From Verrucomicrobiales bacterium (GTDB lineage Bacteria > Verrucomicrobiota > Verrucomicrobiia > Limisphaerales > UBA1100), in the NCBI GenBank assembly GCA_005809105.1, contig SYLI01000063.1:1-36337 (forward strand): DNA of 36,337 nucleotides, in the 5' to 3' direction. The position numbers and the translations under genes are program-made. Position 1 is the first letter of the stretch, and the number at the start of each line of letters is the position of its first letter. Positions 1,371-16,374 of the stretch are shown piece after piece. The notes under the pieces are model-generated. The model was not told the origin of the DNA. It did no database searches and saw only the letters and a program-made list of their open reading frames with translations.

Positions 1371-3152
1371 CTACGCAGGGACGGATTGGGCCGGCTCTCG
1401 GTCCACCCACTTCCCGTGCTCGCGGATGAGGTCCACGAGGCGCTCCACAGCCTCCGCCTCGGGGATGTTGAACTTGATTGGCTGCTTGCCGACATAGAGA
1501 TTGATTTTCCCGGGTGCGCCACCCACGTAACCAAAATCCGCGTCGGCCATCTCGCCGGGCCCATTGACGATGCAGCCCATGATCGCAATTTTCACCCCCT
1601 TCAAGTGCTCGGTGCGCGCCTTGATGCTCGCCGTCACGGTCTGGAGGTTGAAGAGCGTGCGGCCGCAACTGGGGCAGGCCACGTAGTCGGTCTTGAAGCT
1701 GCGACATCCGGCTGCCTGCAGAATGTTGTAGGCCAGGCGGAGGGATTGGCCCGCACCGCTCTCACCCCGCACGAGAATTGCGTCTCCGATGCCATCGGCC
1801 AATAAAGCACCGAGGTTGACGGCCGCGCGCAAGAGGGCCGCTTCGGGCGACAGAGGAACCGGCTCGAAGCCCAGCGCGTCCTTGAGCAGAATGGGGTTAT
1901 TGCTTCCCAACCGCTTGAGCCTGGCCGCCAGCAGGCGAAAGGCCGTGATGGGGGGCAACCCCACGTCATCCTTCACCGTCACCAATTGCCTCTCGCATGA
2001 GATTGAGAAGTCCTCGCGCGGGTCCAGTTCGGCAATGTTCAAGTCTTCGTAGACCGCCTCGGGACGCACGTCATCCCCTGGCCGGATTCGCGGCGCCACC
2101 TTGTCAAACACGGCCCGCGGGACGACGACGCGCACGGGCACTTCGCCGCCACAGCGCGTCGCGCCGGCAAGTTCAATCTCCGGCGTGGCGCGGCGCTCGA
2201 ACGAATACGGATCGAAACTTGGTTCAAGCGGAGCCAACGCCTTCGAGTTGACCATCGCGGGCAACTGGCCCAGCAAGTCGTTGCAGACGGCGATTTCGCG
2301 CGGGCTATCCTCCGTGAGGCTGACACGGATGGTGTCACCCAACCCGTCGCAAAGAAGCGACCCAATGCCAATGGCGCTCTTGATACGGCCATCCTCGCCG
2401 TCGCCCGCCTCTGTGACACCCAAGTGCAGGGGATAATTCCAGTCGTCACCTTCCTGCGCCAATCGTGCCGCGAGCAGGCGATAGCAGGCGATCATCACCT
2501 TGGGGTTGCTCGACTTCATCGAAAACTTGAAGTTGTGAAACTCGTGCTTGCGGCAGATGCGGGCAAACTCCATGGCGCTCTCCACCATGCCGCGGGGCGA
2601 ATCGCCGTAACGGTTCATGATGCGGTCGGAGAGCGAGCCATGATTGGTGCCGATGCGAAGCGCACGCCCCAGCGCCTTGAGCTTTTGCACGAGCGGCGCG
2701 AACTTCTCAGAAATGCGGTACAACTCGGCAGCGTAGGCCTCGTCGGTGTACTCCTTGACGGCAAATTTCTTGGAGTCGGCGTAGTTGCCCGGATTGATGC
2801 GCACCATTTCCACCCAGTTTGCCGCCTCCATCGCGGCCTCCGGTTTGAAATGGATGTCCGCGACGATGGGAACCATGCAGCCACGGGCGCGCAATTCCGC
2901 GACGATGTGCTGCAGGTTTGCCGCGTCCCTCACCGTGGGTGCGGTGATGCGCACGATCTGGCATCCGACCGCCACCAGATCGAGCGTCTGCCGCACACAC
3001 TCACCTGTGTCCATCGTGTCGCAGGTGAGCATGGACTGCGTCACGATGGGCTGCGCACCACCCACGATGACGCCGCCCTGCGCGGGGTCGCCAACCCTCA
3101 CCTCGCGCGTCACGCGCTTCTCATGGCGCCAGGGTGAGCGGCAGTAGCGCAT
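1371..3152 (-). CDS. ispG: 4-hydroxy-3-methylbut-2-en-1-yl diphosphate synthase, long form
   Basis: IspG (GcpE) reduces the cyclic intermediate MEcPP to HMBPP, the penultimate step of the MEP isoprenoid pathway, using a 4Fe-4S cluster. The protein has 593 residues, much longer than the ~370-residue two-domain enzyme. This matches the three-domain form with an inserted middle domain known from plants, Chlamydiae and Bacteroidetes. The N-terminal TIM-barrel region contains VTQSMLTCDTMDT and RITAPTVRDAANL. The cluster ligands are Cys493 and Cys496 (CPSCGRTL) and Cys527 (MGCIVNGPGE). Its ATG directly abuts the rseP stop codon, so it is the last gene of the purA-uppS-cdsA-dxr-rseP-ispG run and shares that run with the other MEP gene dxr. 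Confidence 0.96.
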   Translation of the reverse strand: MRYCRSPWRHEKRVTREVRVGDPAQGGVIVGGAQPIVTQSMLTCDTMDTGECVRQTLDLVAVGCQIVRITAPTVRDAANLQHIVAELRARGCMVPIVADIHFKPEAAMEAANWVEMVRINPGNYADSKKFAVKEYTDEAYAAELYRISEKFAPLVQKLKALGRALRIGTNHGSLSDRIMNRYGDSPRGMVESAMEFARICRKHEFHNFKFSMKSSNPKVMIACYRLLAARLAQEGDDWNYPLHLGVTEAGDGEDGRIKSAIGIGSLLCDGLGDTIRVSLTEDSPREIAVCNDLLGQLPAMVNSKALAPLEPSFDPYSFERRATPEIELAGATRCGGEVPVRVVVPRAVFDKVAPRIRPGDDVRPEAVYEDLNIAELDPREDFSISCERQLVTVKDDVGLPPITAFRLLAARLKRLGSNNPILLKDALGFEPVPLSPEAALLRAAVNLGALLADGIGDAILVRGESGAGQSLRLAYNILQAAGCRSFKTDYVACPSCGRTLFNLQTVTASIKARTEHLKGVKIAIMGCIVNGPGEMADADFGYVGGAPGKINLYVGKQPIKFNIPEAEAVERLVDLIREHGKWVDREPAQSVPA

Positions 3153-4844
3153 CTATTTCGGAGGGGCTGGCGGCGGGCTGCTCTTCTCGATGGTGGTCTC
3201 CCGTTTGAAGAGGTCGCTAAAGAGGGACATGCGCTGCAGATCGAAGAAGGTCACATACACCATGAAGGAGAGCAGCAGGATGGCGAACGCGGTGGTGGCG
3301 TATTCCTGGATGCGCACGCTGACGGGCTTGTTGCGGATGCGCTCGATGAGCGAGAGAAGGATGTGTCCGCCATCGAGCACCGGCACGGGCAGCAGGTTCA
3401 AGACCGCGAGGTTGATGTTGAGCAGCACGAGAAAACTAAGCGCCAGTCGGAAATCGGTGTTCACAAAGATGGAGAGCATGCCCAGAATGCCCACCGGGCC
3501 GCTCAGGTCCTTGGCGCCCACTCCCGTCTCCTTGGAGCGAAAGAGTGCGCTCAAGGTGGTCAGCGTCTTGTCCCAGACGTCGCTGATTTGCGCCAGCGGC
3601 GTCGGGCCCGGTTTTGACAGCGAGTACTTGATGCGCGGTGCGGCAAATTCCAATCCCACCTCCTGTTCGAGCACCACGCCGATTTGCACGGCACCGGTGC
3701 CGGCATTCCTTTGCGGCGTGATGCGCACCGTCATGGGCTTGCCTGCCCGGGTGATGTCCAGCACCAGTTCCTTTCCGGGGTGTTGCTGCACGAGCGTGAT
3801 GAGGTGGCGGGTGCTGGTGAGGTGCTGGCCACCGGCGCGTAGAATCTGGTCGCCCGCCTGCAACCCCGCGACCATCGCCGGCGTTGGCACGGGCTCCTGC
3901 TCTTGCTTCAATCCCGTCCACATCCAGAACCGGCTCCAGGCGCCAAATCGCGGCACGGGAACCGCACCCACTTGAACGCCGGCGTTTTCCGGCGCGGTCG
4001 CTTGCAGCGACTTGGACTCGCCGTTCCGGCTGATGTTCAGAACCAACCCGGTTCCCGGCGCCGCAAAGAGCTGGTCCAGAAAATGAAACTGACTGTACGA
4101 AGGCACGCCGCCGACGCCGACCACGGTGTCGCCGGCGCGAAGCCCCGCAACCTCGAACACGCTCTTGGGCTTCACGGTTTGAATCTCAAGGGGCTCGCTG
4201 TCATCGAGCTTGAGCATCTTGAAGCGGCCGGCGGTGGATTCGGACTTCAACACGTGTGAGACGGTCTGATTGCCCTGCTGCAAGGTGACACGAATGTCGG
4301 CCGTCTTCTGATCCAACACACCCAGCACCACATCCTGCCATGTATTGACGGGCTTGCCCCCCACCGCGAGGATCCGGTTGCCCGGCTGGATGCCCGCCTG
4401 CTCCTCCGCCGATCCCTTTTCCACGTAACCAATCACCGGGTCGTTCACCGGCCGCGGCAGCCCCACCCGCCAGAGAACCACCGCAATCACCACGGCAAAC
4501 ACCACGTTCATCAGAGGGCCCGCCACGGCCACCAGAATTTTCGAAAAGGGCGTCACCGGTGGCAGCGGATCCACCGCTCCCTGGGCTGTGCCTTCGATGG
4601 CCTCGGAGGTGATCATCTGGGGCAGCTTGACGAAGCCGCCTGCGGGAATGGCGCGCACCGAATAGAGGATGCCGTCGACCTCCTTGCTCCAGAGGATGGG
4701 CCCAAAGCCGATGGCGAACTCCTCCACCTTCAGTCCGCGCCGCCGGGCCACCCAGTAGTGGCCGAATTCATGCACGAAGATGGCGGCGCCAAAGAGCAGC
4801 AACACCACGCCGCCCACGTAGAGGATGTTCAGTAGGCTTGTCAT
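3153..4844 (-). CDS. rseP: Site-2 (intramembrane) metalloprotease RseP with three PDZ-like domains
   Basis: A 563-residue M50 zinc protease of the inner membrane that cleaves membrane-bound substrates such as anti-sigma factors. HEFGH (residues 25-29) in the first membrane segment and LDGGH (490-494) in a late segment supply the metal site. Between them lie three PDZ-like units: about 136-200 (AGIQPGNRILAVGGKPV), 220-285 (AGLRAGDTVVGVGGVP) and 318-378 (AGLQAGDQILRAGGQHL). Enterobacterial RseP is about 450 residues with two PDZ domains, so the extra length is largely the third unit. The tail is proline-rich. It starts 47 bp after dxr and abuts ispG; the dxr-cdsA-uppS neighbourhood is a classic context for this protease. 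Confidence 0.95.
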   Translation of the reverse strand: MTSLLNILYVGGVVLLLFGAAIFVHEFGHYWVARRRGLKVEEFAIGFGPILWSKEVDGILYSVRAIPAGGFVKLPQMITSEAIEGTAQGAVDPLPPVTPFSKILVAVAGPLMNVVFAVVIAVVLWRVGLPRPVNDPVIGYVEKGSAEEQAGIQPGNRILAVGGKPVNTWQDVVLGVLDQKTADIRVTLQQGNQTVSHVLKSESTAGRFKMLKLDDSEPLEIQTVKPKSVFEVAGLRAGDTVVGVGGVPSYSQFHFLDQLFAAPGTGLVLNISRNGESKSLQATAPENAGVQVGAVPVPRFGAWSRFWMWTGLKQEQEPVPTPAMVAGLQAGDQILRAGGQHLTSTRHLITLVQQHPGKELVLDITRAGKPMTVRITPQRNAGTGAVQIGVVLEQEVGLEFAAPRIKYSLSKPGPTPLAQISDVWDKTLTTLSALFRSKETGVGAKDLSGPVGILGMLSIFVNTDFRLALSFLVLLNINLAVLNLLPVPVLDGGHILLSLIERIRNKPVSVRIQEYATTAFAILLLSFMVYVTFFDLQRMSLFSDLFKRETTIEKSSPPPAPPK

Positions 4845-4891
4845 TTGTCGTCGCTGGCAAAGAGGATAGTCACAGGCCCATCAGAAATCAA

Positions 4892-6043
4892 TCAGCCAGC
4901 CGCCACGAGGCCGCCAGCGAATTCCCTCGCCCACCGATCGGCATCGAGAATCTGTTCGAGTCCCGCCTCCAACATCACCTCGTGCGCCTCCATTGTTTCG
5001 CGCACCACTCGGGTGATGCCGGTGAATCCCGTGCGCCCTTTGCAGAAGCCTTCCACGGCGATTTCATTGGCGGCATTGAGAACCGCCGGCAGCGTGCCCC
5101 CCACCTCCCCTGCCCGGCGCGCCAGCAGCAGCGAAGGAAACCGTTCCGTGTCGGGTTCTTCGAAGGTGAGCGAGCCGATACGAGCCAGGTCGGTCTGCAC
5201 ACGGTCGCTGGGCACGCGATGGGGATAGGTGAATGCGTACTGGATGGGCAGGCACATGTCCGGCGTGGAAAGCTGCGCAAGAATGGAGCCGTCGATAAAT
5301 TCCACCATCGAGTGAACCACGCTCTGCGGATGCACCACCACGCCCACCCGCGCCATGTCGATTCCAAAGAGCCACCGCGCTTCGATCATCTCCAGTCCCT
5401 TGTTGAAGAGCGTCGCTGAATCGATGGTGATCTTGCGACCCATCTGCCATGAGGGGTGCTTGAGGGCCTGCTCCACGGTGATGGTCTCAAACGCGTCGCG
5501 CGGTGTGGTGCGGAAAGGGCCACCCGACGCCGTCAGCACCAGACGCCGCACCGAGTCGGCGGGCTTGCCATCCAGACACTGGAAGATGGCCGAATGCTCG
5601 CTGTCCACCGCCAGCACGCGCACGCCATGACGCCGGGCCTCGCTCATCACCATTTCGCCCGCCATCACCAGAATCTCCTTGGAGGCAAGGGCGATGTCTT
5701 TGCCCGCGCGTATGGCCGCAAGCGCCGGTTGCAGCCCGCCCGTGCCCACGATGGCGATCAGCACAAGATCGGCCTCTGGAAGCGTGGCCAGCCGAATCAG
5801 GCCCTCCGGGCCATGATACACGTCGACTGCGCGACCAAGCTCCCTTCGCAGTGCCACGGCATCGGCTGGATCGCCAATGGAGACGGCCACCGGCCCAAAC
5901 TGGCGCGCCTGCTCACGCAACAGCGAGACATTGCGTCCGGCAGCCAGTCCAACGATCTGAACCTGGTCGGGCAAATCCATCGCCACCTTGGCCGCGCTGG
6001 TGCCAATGGATCCCGTGCAGCCCAGAACCACCACGCGTTTCAT
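4892..6043 (-). CDS. dxr: 1-deoxy-D-xylulose-5-phosphate reductoisomerase
   Basis: Dxr (IspC) converts DXP to MEP with NADPH and a divalent metal, the first committed step of the MEP pathway. The 383-residue protein has the NADPH-binding start VVVLGCTGSIGTSAAKV, the ALASKEILVMAGE segment, the metal/substrate motif VDSEHSAIFQCL and the loop LTASGGPF. HPSWQMGRKITIDSATLFNKG and the all-alpha C-terminal domain follow. Length is normal. The ATG overlaps the cdsA stop by 4 bp, indicating translational coupling. With ispG in the same run, two MEP genes are co-located. Confidence 0.97.
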   Translation of the reverse strand: MKRVVVLGCTGSIGTSAAKVAMDLPDQVQIVGLAAGRNVSLLREQARQFGPVAVSIGDPADAVALRRELGRAVDVYHGPEGLIRLATLPEADLVLIAIVGTGGLQPALAAIRAGKDIALASKEILVMAGEMVMSEARRHGVRVLAVDSEHSAIFQCLDGKPADSVRRLVLTASGGPFRTTPRDAFETITVEQALKHPSWQMGRKITIDSATLFNKGLEMIEARWLFGIDMARVGVVVHPQSVVHSMVEFIDGSILAQLSTPDMCLPIQYAFTYPHRVPSDRVQTDLARIGSLTFEEPDTERFPSLLLARRAGEVGGTLPAVLNAANEIAVEGFCKGRTGFTGITRVVRETMEAHEVMLEAGLEQILDADRWAREFAGGLVAAG

Positions 6044-6936
6044 GGGCCATGCACGAACAAGCGCAGGTAGAGGTACATCAAGGGCGCGTTAAAGAGCAGG
6101 CTGTCGAGCAGGTCGAGAATGCCCCCGATGCCGGGGAACGAGCTGCCCGAGTCTTTCATGCCCGCCTCGCGCTTCAGCTTGGATTCCACCAAATCACCCA
6201 TCACCGCGCCCAGCCCCAGCAACGCCCCCAGCAACATCACGTGCAGGCGTGTCACCGGCTGGAAATGCGCTGGAGCGAGGGCCGTGACCAGCCACGCCGC
6301 GGTGATGGAGAACACGATGGCGCCCGCAAAACCTTCCCACGTCTTTCCGGGACTGATGGCCGGCACCATCTTGTGGCGTCCCCAAAGTGAACCCACCACG
6401 TACGCACCTGTGTCGCTCATCTTGGTGACCAGGATGAAGAGAAGCAGATACCACGGACCATCGGCGTTGTAGAACCGGATATGCTGGATGAACCCCAGCA
6501 TCAACCCCACATAGATGAGGCCGAGCACCGTGGCAGAGATGGAGCCTTCCCGGGGCGGATTTGAGAGATGAGCCAAAAATATCAGCAGCGTGCTCACCGC
6601 AACCCAGAGGACTTCGAACGCCAGCGCGTCGCCCGGCTTGTCCCTGTAGGCCGTGAAGTAAAAGACGCCCAGTGTCAGCAACAGCACGCAAGCCTGCCCC
6701 GGAGAACGGTAGGCATGGTGCCCCGCCCTAGACATGAGGGTGTAAAACTCGGACAGGCCCGAGTAGTTCAGCAAGATCATCAAGAGCAGAAAGACGCCTC
6801 CGGCCAGCCTTGGATCAGGATAGAAAAGCGCCGCGAGCAGCGCGCCCCATAGCAGGCTCGCGCTGGCGGCGCGTCGCAGGAACACCTGCCAGCGCGTCGG
6901 GCTTCCGGGGATCTCAGGTTGCTTGGTCTCCATCAA
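6040..6936 (-). CDS. cdsA: Phosphatidate cytidylyltransferase (CDP-diacylglycerol synthase)
   Basis: CdsA makes CDP-diacylglycerol from phosphatidate and CTP in the cytoplasmic membrane, the branch point for phospholipids. The 298-residue sequence is strongly hydrophobic with many membrane segments after a short polar N-terminus. The CDP-alcohol synthase signature is near the C-terminus: ESKLKREAGMKDSGSSFPG followed by IGGILDLLDS, where the usual HGG is IGG. An upstream acidic site appears as TKMSDTGAYVVG with GKTWEG. It overlaps uppS and dxr by 4 bp on either side, so coordinated expression with undecaprenyl and isoprenoid synthesis is likely. Confidence 0.94.
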   Translation of the reverse strand: MMETKQPEIPGSPTRWQVFLRRAASASLLWGALLAALFYPDPRLAGGVFLLLMILLNYSGLSEFYTLMSRAGHHAYRSPGQACVLLLTLGVFYFTAYRDKPGDALAFEVLWVAVSTLLIFLAHLSNPPREGSISATVLGLIYVGLMLGFIQHIRFYNADGPWYLLLFILVTKMSDTGAYVVGSLWGRHKMVPAISPGKTWEGFAGAIVFSITAAWLVTALAPAHFQPVTRLHVMLLGALLGLGAVMGDLVESKLKREAGMKDSGSSFPGIGGILDLLDSLLFNAPLMYLYLRLFVHGP

Positions 6937-7670
6937 ACGCCTCCAAAGCGCCGGTGGCGGCGGGCGTACTCCTCCAGCGCGGCGCGAAATTCCTTCGCCT
7001 TGAACTCCGGCCAGGCCACCGGGGTGACGAGCAGCTCGGCATAGGAAAGCTGCCAGAGCAGGAAGTTGCTCAGCCGCATCTCGCCGCTGGTCCGGATCAG
7101 GAGGTCGGGATCAGGCACGTGCCGGGTGTGCAGGTGGTGAGCGAAGGCCGCCTCGTCGATCTCGCCCGGCTCCATGGCACCTTCCCTGACCTTCTGCGCC
7201 AGCGCACGCGCCGCGTCCACGATCTCGGCCCGAGAACTGTAGCTCAGCGCGAGAATGAGGGTCATGCCCTGATTGTGAGCGAGCGCCGCGCGCGTCTTGT
7301 TGAGCTGATTACGAACGTCGTCGGGCAGCCGGTGAATCTGCCCGATGGCTTCGAGACGAACGTGGTTCTCGTTGAGAACAGGACACTCGCGTTTCAGGTA
7401 CACGGTGAGATAGCGCATGATGGTCGCCACCTCGTCCTGCGGCCGGTTCCAGTTCTCGGCGGAAAACGTGTAGAGGGTAAGGTACTTGACCCCCGCCTGC
7501 GCTGCGGCGCGGATGACCGCCCGGGCGGAATCGACGCCGCGCCGGTGGCCTTCCACGCGCGGCAGTCCCCGCGCCTTGGCCCATCGTCCGTTGCCATCCA
7601 GGATGATGGCGACATGCGTGGGCAGCTCGTCGCGCGCGACCGGGCTTAGCTGTGCAGCGGGCGCCGTCAT
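6933..7670 (-). CDS. uppS: Isoprenyl (undecaprenyl) diphosphate synthase
   Basis: A cis-prenyltransferase that condenses farnesyl diphosphate with isopentenyl diphosphate to give the undecaprenyl carrier for peptidoglycan and O-antigen. The motif HVAIILDGNGRWAKARGLP carries the catalytic Asp25, followed by GHRRG; later come LYTFSAENWNRP and the C-terminal DLLIRTSGEMRLSNFLLWQ. The ATG at 7670 gives 245 residues; an in-frame TTG three codons upstream (7679) is less likely. No Shine-Dalgarno sequence is obvious. The gene begins 10 bp after purA and overlaps cdsA by 4 bp. Confidence 0.96.
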   Translation of the reverse strand: MTAPAAQLSPVARDELPTHVAIILDGNGRWAKARGLPRVEGHRRGVDSARAVIRAAAQAGVKYLTLYTFSAENWNRPQDEVATIMRYLTVYLKRECPVLNENHVRLEAIGQIHRLPDDVRNQLNKTRAALAHNQGMTLILALSYSSRAEIVDAARALAQKVREGAMEPGEIDEAAFAHHLHTRHVPDPDLLIRTSGEMRLSNFLLWQLSYAELLVTPVAWPEFKAKEFRAALEEYARRHRRFGGV

Positions 7671-7680
7671 GGCACGCAAG

Positions 7681-8946
7681 TTAAGGAAGAATCGTTTGGT
7701 CGCGGGCCGGGCCGACTGAGACCATCGCCAAGTGCGCCCCCGAAAGTTGGGCGAGCGCCTTGAGGTAAGCGCGCGCGTTTCGCGGAAGATCGTTCCACCG
7801 GCGCGCCGTGCTGGTGTCCTTGCTCCATCCGGGAAAGACGCGGTAGACAGGCTTGCAGGCTGCGAGCTGATCGAGGTCGGCCGGCACGCGATCCAACCGG
7901 CGCCCCGCCAGCGCGTAGTGGGTGCACACCTTGATTTCAGAAAGCGTGTCCAGCCCGTCCAGATTGGTCACCGCAATCTCATCGATGCCATTGATGCGTG
8001 CCGCCTGGCGCGTCACGACCGCGTCAAACCATCCGCAACGCCGCGCGCGCCCCGTGGTGGCGCCAAATTCGCGGCCCATGCCGTGCAGCAGGTCGGCGAT
8101 GGTGGCGTCCTCGGTGGGCAATGGGCCGCCGCCCACGCGCGTCGTGTAGGCTTTCATGACGCCAATCACCTTGTCGATGCGGTTGGGCGGAACGCCCGAA
8201 CCGGTGCAGGCACCGCCCGCCGTGGTGTTGGAGGAGGTCACGTAAGGATACGTCCCATGGTCGATGTCCAGATAAGACCCTTGCGCGCCCTCAAAGAGCA
8301 TCTGCTTGCCCTCGTCCAACGCGTCATGCAGCAGCTGCACCGTGTCCACGATGAGCGGCCGAAGCCGGCGCGCGGCGCGACGGTATTCCGCCTCGATGGG
8401 CGCCAGCGAGACGGGCTTGCCACCCAGCGCGCGCAAGAGCCGGTTGCTGGCTCGCACCTGCTCGCGCAGACGCAAGGGCCAATCGCGGCGCAGGAGGTCC
8501 AACATGCGCAGGCCCGTGCGCGAAATCTTGTCGGCATAGGCCGGCCCGATGCCGCGCCGCGTGGTGCCGATGGATTGCTTTCCTTTGAGCTTCTCAGCGC
8601 ACGCGTCCAGTTCGCGATGGTAGGGCAGCACCATGTGCGCCTTTTCGCTGATACGCAGGTTGCCGTTGACGCGCACGCCCAGCCGCTCGAGATCCTGAAT
8701 TTCTCGCACCAGCGCCACGGGATCGACCACGACGCCATTGCCGATGACACACTGGGTTTTGCCGCGCAGGATGCCCGAGGGGATGAGGTGCAGCACGTAT
8801 TTCTGCGGGCCGACGAACACGGTGTGCCCCGCGTTGCTGCCACCCTGCGTGCGCACCACCACGTCCGCCCGCTCGGTCAGCACGTCGATGACCTTGCCCT
8901 TGCCTTCGTCGCCCAACTGGGCTCCCACGAGAATGATGTTGGCCAT
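7681..8946 (-). CDS. purA: Adenylosuccinate synthetase
   Basis: PurA joins IMP and aspartate with GTP to form adenylosuccinate, the first step of AMP synthesis from IMP. The 421-residue protein begins with the P-loop GAQLGDEGKGK and continues with RTQGGSNAGHTVFV, which holds the catalytic Asp and His. IGTTRRGIGPAY, the GAQGSYLDIDHGTYPYVTSSNT segment and GRARRCGWFD are all present. Length is normal. It is the first gene of the run that leads into uppS. Its upstream leader contains a promoter-like sequence and a terminator-like hairpin, listed separately, that could control entry into the operon. Confidence 0.97.
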   Translation of the reverse strand: MANIILVGAQLGDEGKGKVIDVLTERADVVVRTQGGSNAGHTVFVGPQKYVLHLIPSGILRGKTQCVIGNGVVVDPVALVREIQDLERLGVRVNGNLRISEKAHMVLPYHRELDACAEKLKGKQSIGTTRRGIGPAYADKISRTGLRMLDLLRRDWPLRLREQVRASNRLLRALGGKPVSLAPIEAEYRRAARRLRPLIVDTVQLLHDALDEGKQMLFEGAQGSYLDIDHGTYPYVTSSNTTAGGACTGSGVPPNRIDKVIGVMKAYTTRVGGGPLPTEDATIADLLHGMGREFGATTGRARRCGWFDAVVTRQAARINGIDEIAVTNLDGLDTLSEIKVCTHYALAGRRLDRVPADLDQLAACKPVYRVFPGWSKDTSTARRWNDLPRNARAYLKALAQLSGAHLAMVSVGPARDQTILP

Positions 8947-8973
8947 GGCGGCGTTCGCTTTCGTTCGACAATG

Positions 8974-8995
8974 AAAAACCCCGACAGTGTCGGGG
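8974..8995 (-). terminator. Intrinsic-terminator-like hairpin in the purA leader
   Basis: CCCCGACAGTGTCGGGG at 8979-8995 is a near-perfect palindrome. On the minus strand it forms an 8-bp stem and is followed at once by five T residues (8978-8974). It lies between the putative purA promoter and the purA ATG, ending 27 bases before the start codon. A terminator so close in front of a gene on the same strand suggests transcription attenuation. It overlaps by two bases a second inverted repeat, GGCAAAT (8994-9000) with ATTTGCC (9009-9015), that could form an alternative hairpin. No upstream minus-strand gene needs this terminator, since the neighbour is divergent. Confidence 0.55.
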
Positions 8996-9020
8996 CAAAT
9001 CGTCCTCTATTTGCCGCGAG

Positions 9021-9049
9021 AAACTAGGCAACGCGTCGGGCGGTGTCAA
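9021..9049 (-). promoter_or_regulatory. Putative sigma70-type promoter for purA
   Basis: Read on the minus strand, 9049-9044 is a perfect TTGACA, followed after 17 bp by TAGTTT at 9026-9021, a partial match to the -10 box (3 of 6). The expected start of transcription is about 9014, giving a leader of roughly 70 nt that holds the hairpin at 8979-8995. The assignment rests only on consensus match and position upstream of purA. Confidence 0.45.
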
Positions 9050-9093
9050 TCAAAACCCCTTCCCATCCCCCGCGCGTCGACTTAACTTCGCGC

Positions 9094-16299: not shown

Positions 16300-16374
<75 letters not shown>

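Follow-up and report, generated by a model that had tools for sequence, protein, structure and literature searches.

A conserved purA leader in which the 5′ end of the transcript may antagonize an intrinsic terminator

Why should a gene of purine synthesis be preceded, within a few tens of nucleotides of its promoter, by a hairpin that resembles an intrinsic terminator? The question is raised by the purA leader on the minus strand of contig SYLI01000063.1, of which 36,337 nucleotides, the whole stretch analyzed, are referred to here as the window. The full leader consists of TTGACA, a 17-bp spacer, TAGTTT, a GC-rich discriminator, GCAAATAGAGGACGATTTGCCCCGACACTGTCGGGGTTTTT and a further 27 nt before the purA ATG at 8946. 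The parts expected of an attenuator, a promoter followed by a GC-rich hairpin and a U-tract ahead of purA, are present both in the window and in its relatives. The original prediction had named the promoter, an inverted repeat read on the minus strand (GGCAAAT at 9015-9009 and ATTTGCC at 9000-8994), a hairpin followed by five T residues and a gap of 27 bases to the ATG, and had noted that the two stems share 8994-8995; these coordinates are accurate base for base, and the overlap exists as described. The features of the locus are as follows.

9044-9049, minus strand: −35 element TTGACA, read directly from the sequence
9021-9026, minus strand: −10 element TAGTTT, 17 bp after the −35 element; TAnnnT in relatives, with spacers of 17 or 18
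9015-9020, minus strand: discriminator CTCGCG, GC-rich (mean 73% GC, n = 131 leaders)
9014, minus strand: G predicted as the transcription start (+1), 7 nt downstream of the −10 element; pairing starts here and not at −1
9009-9014, minus strand: 5′ arm of helix S1, GCAAAT, RNA positions +1 to +6, from pairing tests across leaders
8995-9000, minus strand: 3′ arm of helix S1, ATTTGC, whose last C (8995) doubles as the first C of the terminator stem
8989-8995, minus strand: 5′ arm of the terminator stem, CCCCGAC, from the sequence and a terminator scan
8979-8985, minus strand: 3′ arm of the terminator stem, GTCGGGG, with the loop ACT at 8986-8988, from the sequence and the scan
8974-8978, minus strand: terminator U-tract TTTTT, from the sequence and the scan, kept in relatives
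8947-8973, minus strand: remaining 5′ untranslated region, read from the sequence
7681-8946, minus strand: purA, adenylosuccinate synthetase, the putative regulated gene, from its gene location
1371-7679, minus strand: uppS, cdsA, dxr, rseP and ispG behind purA (names from the original prediction, order and spacing from the list of open reading frames)

A terminator scan of the whole stretch recovered independently the stem-loop that had been described as terminator-like. It reported 4 such sites, compared with 4.6 expected from shuffled sequence. Under the stricter promoter rule of the same scan no promoter was called in the stretch, because TAGTTT fits TATAAT at just three of six positions. 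Taken in isolation, the window leader is not above chance, and it is conservation that supplies the evidence against chance.

Of 58 genomes, 57 yielded PurA, and the DNA upstream of the gene was read in about 50 of them. The same order of parts precedes purA in 44 of the first 50 loci read: TTGACA or TTGACT, 17 or 18 bp, TAnnnT or a similar sequence, 6 nt, G[CT]AAA[TG], and a terminator of the form CCCCG...CGGGG followed by a U-tract. Among additional leaders from relatives, TTGACA is matched at five or six positions in 92 of 93. Among the roughly 50 loci read, three (L032, L044 and L046) carry no leader of this kind upstream of purA and two (L018 and L050) have the terminator without a clear 5′ arm; L009, where the contig ends, was counted among the exceptions. 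One locus, L017, retains the layout with arm pairing that is no longer complete. In L017, L155, L190, L018 and L050 either the 5′ arm or the sequence complementary to it has decayed, with a promoter-like sequence or the terminator persisting, and these leaders possibly represent losses of control or assembly errors.

Two covariance models, R1 and R2, one for each of the leader types described below, were used to search 293 genomes of the order, which we take to be Limisphaerales. R1 has matches in 172 of these genomes, R2 in 146, and either model in about 194, a figure counted manually over both match lists. In a sample of 288 genomes from across the phylum, Verrucomicrobiota to judge from named relatives, the only strong match came from the genome of the window itself; the others were weak and none was convincing. 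The best matches outside the order (L122, behind a tRNA gene, L123 and L124) proved on reading to be ordinary terminators. Strong matches occur once per genome and are positioned before purA, those elsewhere in the genomes being weak, which indicates that the element is not a general leader. A purA start lies downstream of the element in 91 of 94 newly collected leaders, and a variant, GTAACT...AGTTAT, is found in DBTJ01000029.1 (L195) of Verrucomicrobia bacterium UBA1319. In L008, L022, L027 and similar leaders (genera g4 and g5 of one family) the U-tract nearly reaches the start codon (CGGGGC-TTTTTGTTTT-ATG, 10 nt), so that a Shine-Dalgarno sequence could not fit between terminator and ATG.

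The second conserved part is a helix, S1, formed by the first six bases of the predicted RNA. These bases, mostly GYAAAK, pair at either of two places near the terminator. In type A (46 leaders, including that of the window) the partner abuts the base of the terminator and ends on the first C of its C-run in 42 of 46 cases, so that S1 and the terminator typically overlap by one base pair. In type B (80 leaders) the partner lies in the terminator loop or the upper part of its 5′ arm, as in CCCCGA-AUUUAC-..UCGGGG. On a tree of PurA the leader switches between types A and B at least six times, with S1 pairing kept each time, and base +2 changes at least five times and base +6 at least six times.

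Several comparisons argue that this alternative pairing with the terminator region is conserved and real. Arms scored against their own partners reach 12.78, compared with 10.48 ± 0.19 for exchanged arms, and none of 20,000 swaps attains the observed value; the same result (0 of 20,000) was obtained for 91 leaders outside model building, both tests treating the leaders as independent of kinship. When the tested hexamer is moved along the RNA, z reaches its maximum of 12.3 at +1 to +6, and no signal is left from +4 on. Positions +1 to +5 are paired in 98-100% of leaders. The base at −1 pairs as expected from column composition (45% vs 38% in type B, 54% vs 54% in type A). As the original prediction had proposed, purA leaders of relatives were compared for covariation: S1 pairing is kept through compensatory changes at +2 and +6 of its arm, and the terminator is conserved. 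In the leaders used for the tree, the partner of T at +2 is A in 39 of 39 cases and that of C is G in 18 of 18. Rare arms often have matching partners, for example GTTTCC/GGAAC in L026, GTAACC/GGTTAC in L186 and, with a wobble included, GTAATT/GATTGC in L188. Counted on well supported branches of the PurA tree, the independent pairs number one, too few for a sign test. Pair-count controls are passed by type B and are not significant for type A alone.

The position of the helix bears directly on where transcription begins. Among the 126 leaders with a clear helix, 124 have G at the predicted +1 as the opening base of the arm, so that 9015 probably lies at −1 and the actual arm would be GCAAAT at 9014-9009. 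In L137, which has one extra discriminator base, the register was moved by one manually. A site 7 bp downstream of the −10 element is the preferred start of bacterial RNA polymerase (PMC5730371). The sharp edge of pairing at +1 is in effect an evolutionary map of the start site, and as such a prediction. The original prediction had placed the start inside the first arm of its alternative stem, at about 9014, and had counted this as a limitation; the position appears to be right, and what was taken for a drawback turned out to be the central feature of the leader. As a whole the earlier interpretation is supported in part: a possible attenuator is well supported by comparison of the leaders (the leader, the terminator and the competing stem are all conserved and specific to purA), control by purine level is a conjecture, and the boundary of the alternative stem probably shifts to 9014.

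The initial transcript is conserved beyond what pairing needs. G+1 does not vary in type B either, although a different pair could do its work there, and more than 90% of leaders retain A3-A5 despite the drift at +2 and +6. These constraints point to a role for the initial transcript itself. In type B leaders (for example L098, 1501-1561) the four bases that follow the arm, ACCG at +7 to +10, are unpaired in the S1 model and conserved at 0.95-1.35 bits; conservation falls to 0.08 bits at +11 and is also near zero at +15 and +16. This ACCG may be a determinant of initial transcription or a binding site.

How could such a helix influence the terminator? The distance from the predicted start to the end of the terminator is about 40-45 nt, the terminator ending near +45. 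In folding calculations stopped immediately ahead of the terminator's 3′ arm, S1 has a probability of 0.87 in type A and 0.92 in type B. At equilibrium with the finished terminator, type B gives 0.99 for the terminator and 0.00 for S1; in type A the two can coexist, at 0.69 for S1 and 0.91 for the terminator. For the window leader, the energy of S1 with a shortened hairpin (−13.9, 36 nt) hardly differs from that of the full terminator (−14.0, 38 nt). Exclusion at equilibrium is thus weak, which makes it necessary to assume a kinetic or steric effect. The stems do overlap only slightly, as the original prediction had listed among its limits; this is the rule among these leaders and the main mechanistic weakness. 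Two other foldings were set aside. A second pairing, of CCGAG (+8 to +12) with UUCGG of the terminator, would cross S1 through a connection that is too short, and it shows no covariation; a fold of the whole leader from 9018 gives a different long-range structure and includes untranscribed bases.

Taken together, these observations suggest that the purA leader is a promoter-proximal transcription attenuator antagonized by the 5′ end of its own RNA, a reading to which we assign a probability of roughly 60%. RNA polymerase would start at G9014 and reach the intrinsic terminator about 40-45 nt later. S1 would form ahead of synthesis of the 3′ arm of the terminator and impede closure of the hairpin, and a fraction of the polymerases would then continue into purA and the genes that follow. 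Opposition of S1 to termination would be kinetic. In type B, S1 would hold the terminator loop; in type A it would hold the C needed for the last base pair beside the U-tract, with the helix flush against it. It is possible that S1 aids termination instead of opposing it.

The nature of the signal can be proposed more tentatively than the opposition of S1 to termination. A start with GTP at +1 would produce the full arm, and a start at A+3, or slippage that adds A on A3-A5, would leave the full arm absent. In folding calculations an RNA starting at A+3 has its S1 probability reduced to about 0.1. Three extra A residues added by slippage leave 0.43 in type A and 0.57 in type B, so that pairing is only halved. 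High GTP together with low ATP would then favor purA. Since the PurA reaction spends GTP in making AMP, expression under GTP-high, ATP-low conditions would be a sensible response. Promoters of Bacillus that start with G respond to the GTP pool (PMC3084206), and slippage in Streptococcus mostly adds A (PMC4448216). A protein-free purine sensor of this kind, built into initiation (GTP at +1 vs ATP at +3, or slippage on AAA) and making purA follow the GTP/ATP ratio, is the sensor we prefer and a conceivable but rather uncertain refinement of the attenuator model.

Other explanations of the conserved helix were weighed against the 5′-end attenuator. The leader could be a riboswitch: in type B the 5′ helix would combine with the terminator into a pseudoknot-like fold, and binding of a purine-related metabolite to it would alter the ratio of read-through to termination. 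The strong conservation of the unpaired ACCG in type B fits such a fold, as does the distance of 0-2 nt between the 3′ arm of S1 and the 5′ arm of the terminator, at which coaxial stacking is possible. In type A, however, the partner lies outside the terminator and the loops are variable, and a shared pocket should not survive this. The leader is moreover only about 45 nt long and belongs to no Rfam family at gathering score. Covariance models of Rfam, used at gathering score and with E values up to 5, gave chance matches only for the leader, the best being an unrelated sRNA at 19.5 bits vs 49.5 required; a tRNA gene at 16300-16371 on the plus strand is the sole Rfam match of the window. We regard a riboswitch as unlikely.

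Slightly less probable again is a role in RNA stability, with S1 shielding the 5′ end from pyrophosphohydrolase and RNase E and the terminator just setting a low, constant level of purA. The helix buries exactly +1 to +6, the 5′ end included, as such protection would demand; any nearby sequence would serve this purpose, though, and the location of the partner, always at or inside the terminator, stays unexplained. Recognition of GYAAAK and its complement by a protein, either an RNA-binding antiterminator or a repressor on the DNA inverted repeat, is more doubtful still. Protein-controlled attenuators are common, and an inverted repeat across a start site could act as an operator. Arm-to-arm distance nevertheless differs strongly between types A and B and varies within each, which a DNA-binding dimer should not tolerate and on which ground a DNA operator was rejected; the arms themselves vary with compensation (GTTTCC, GTAACC, GCAAAG), so that no single recognition sequence is retained. 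Leader-peptide attenuation was also rejected, as no open reading frame is conserved and an ATG occurs within +1 to +48 in only 35 of 131 leaders, ATG starts alone being counted. Finally, an ordinary terminator with chance complementarity, or one insulating purA from upstream transcription, is hardly credible: the next upstream gene is divergent and terminator-like sites are no commoner than in shuffled sequence, but the hairpin keeps a constant spacing downstream of a conserved promoter and precedes the gene, and pairing of the 5′ end is conserved and compensated.

The proposed 5′-end attenuator has a close relative in principle. Few attenuators are known in which the extreme 5′ end of the RNA takes part; one is the CTP-sensitive pyrG attenuator, where an added run of G pairs with the 5′ arm of the terminator. 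Reiterative addition of G at the 5′ end of the Bacillus subtilis pyrG RNA reportedly prevents attenuation (PMC4448216). Like pyrG, the purA element combines a short leader, an intrinsic terminator, a gene of nucleotide biosynthesis and an RNA 5′ end complementary to the terminator region. It differs in that pyrG relies on an untemplated G-run at a GGG start, whereas the purA arm is encoded, begins with GC or GT and covaries with its target, which can be either the base or the loop of the terminator; purA is, in addition, a purine gene. The leaders have no G-run at the start, +2 being C or T in those with a helix, and the element was accordingly not filed as a member of the pyrG type. It shares the principle of pyrG and has no match in Rfam or in the papers searched.

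Comparison with other leaders of nucleotide genes is also informative. Escherichia coli codBA, upp, pyrBI and carAB use position 7 after the −10 element, as is predicted for the purA leader, and their start switching or slippage resembles the possible +3 start and the A-tract, possibly able to slip, of purA. Those systems control promoter escape or, in others, translation, and to our knowledge none uses its 5′ end as an antiterminator arm. Guanine/adenine, PRPP and ZTP riboswitches likewise control purine genes in cis with a terminator; they have defined conserved aptamers, whereas the purA leader matches none of these and its universal part is the 5′-end helix and the terminator. The main text of the motif surveys consulted mentions neither purA nor Verrucomicrobia. 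No report of a purA attenuator was found in the literature searched, which included few subscription papers and is therefore weak evidence.

The reach of the attenuator would depend on the genes behind purA. From their arrangement, uppS, cdsA, dxr, rseP and ispG are probably cotranscribed with it. After purA, uppS is found in 26 of 30 related loci (L001-L030; 6933-8946 in the window), and genes of isoprenoid and envelope synthesis may therefore come under the attenuator as well. A divergent gene of PHP type stands upstream of purA in 19 of the 30.

Dozens of families in a little-studied order have conserved the element, and about 200 natural variants show which of its bases matter; the compensatory variants make the mechanism directly testable on short synthetic templates. 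If the proposed mechanism is true, an encoded and evolving 5′-end antiterminator with two interchangeable geometries would represent a new type of nucleotide-sensing attenuator. For these bacteria the element is a candidate mechanism for controlling, without a protein, the AMP branch of purine synthesis and perhaps, through the downstream genes, of isoprenoid and envelope genes.
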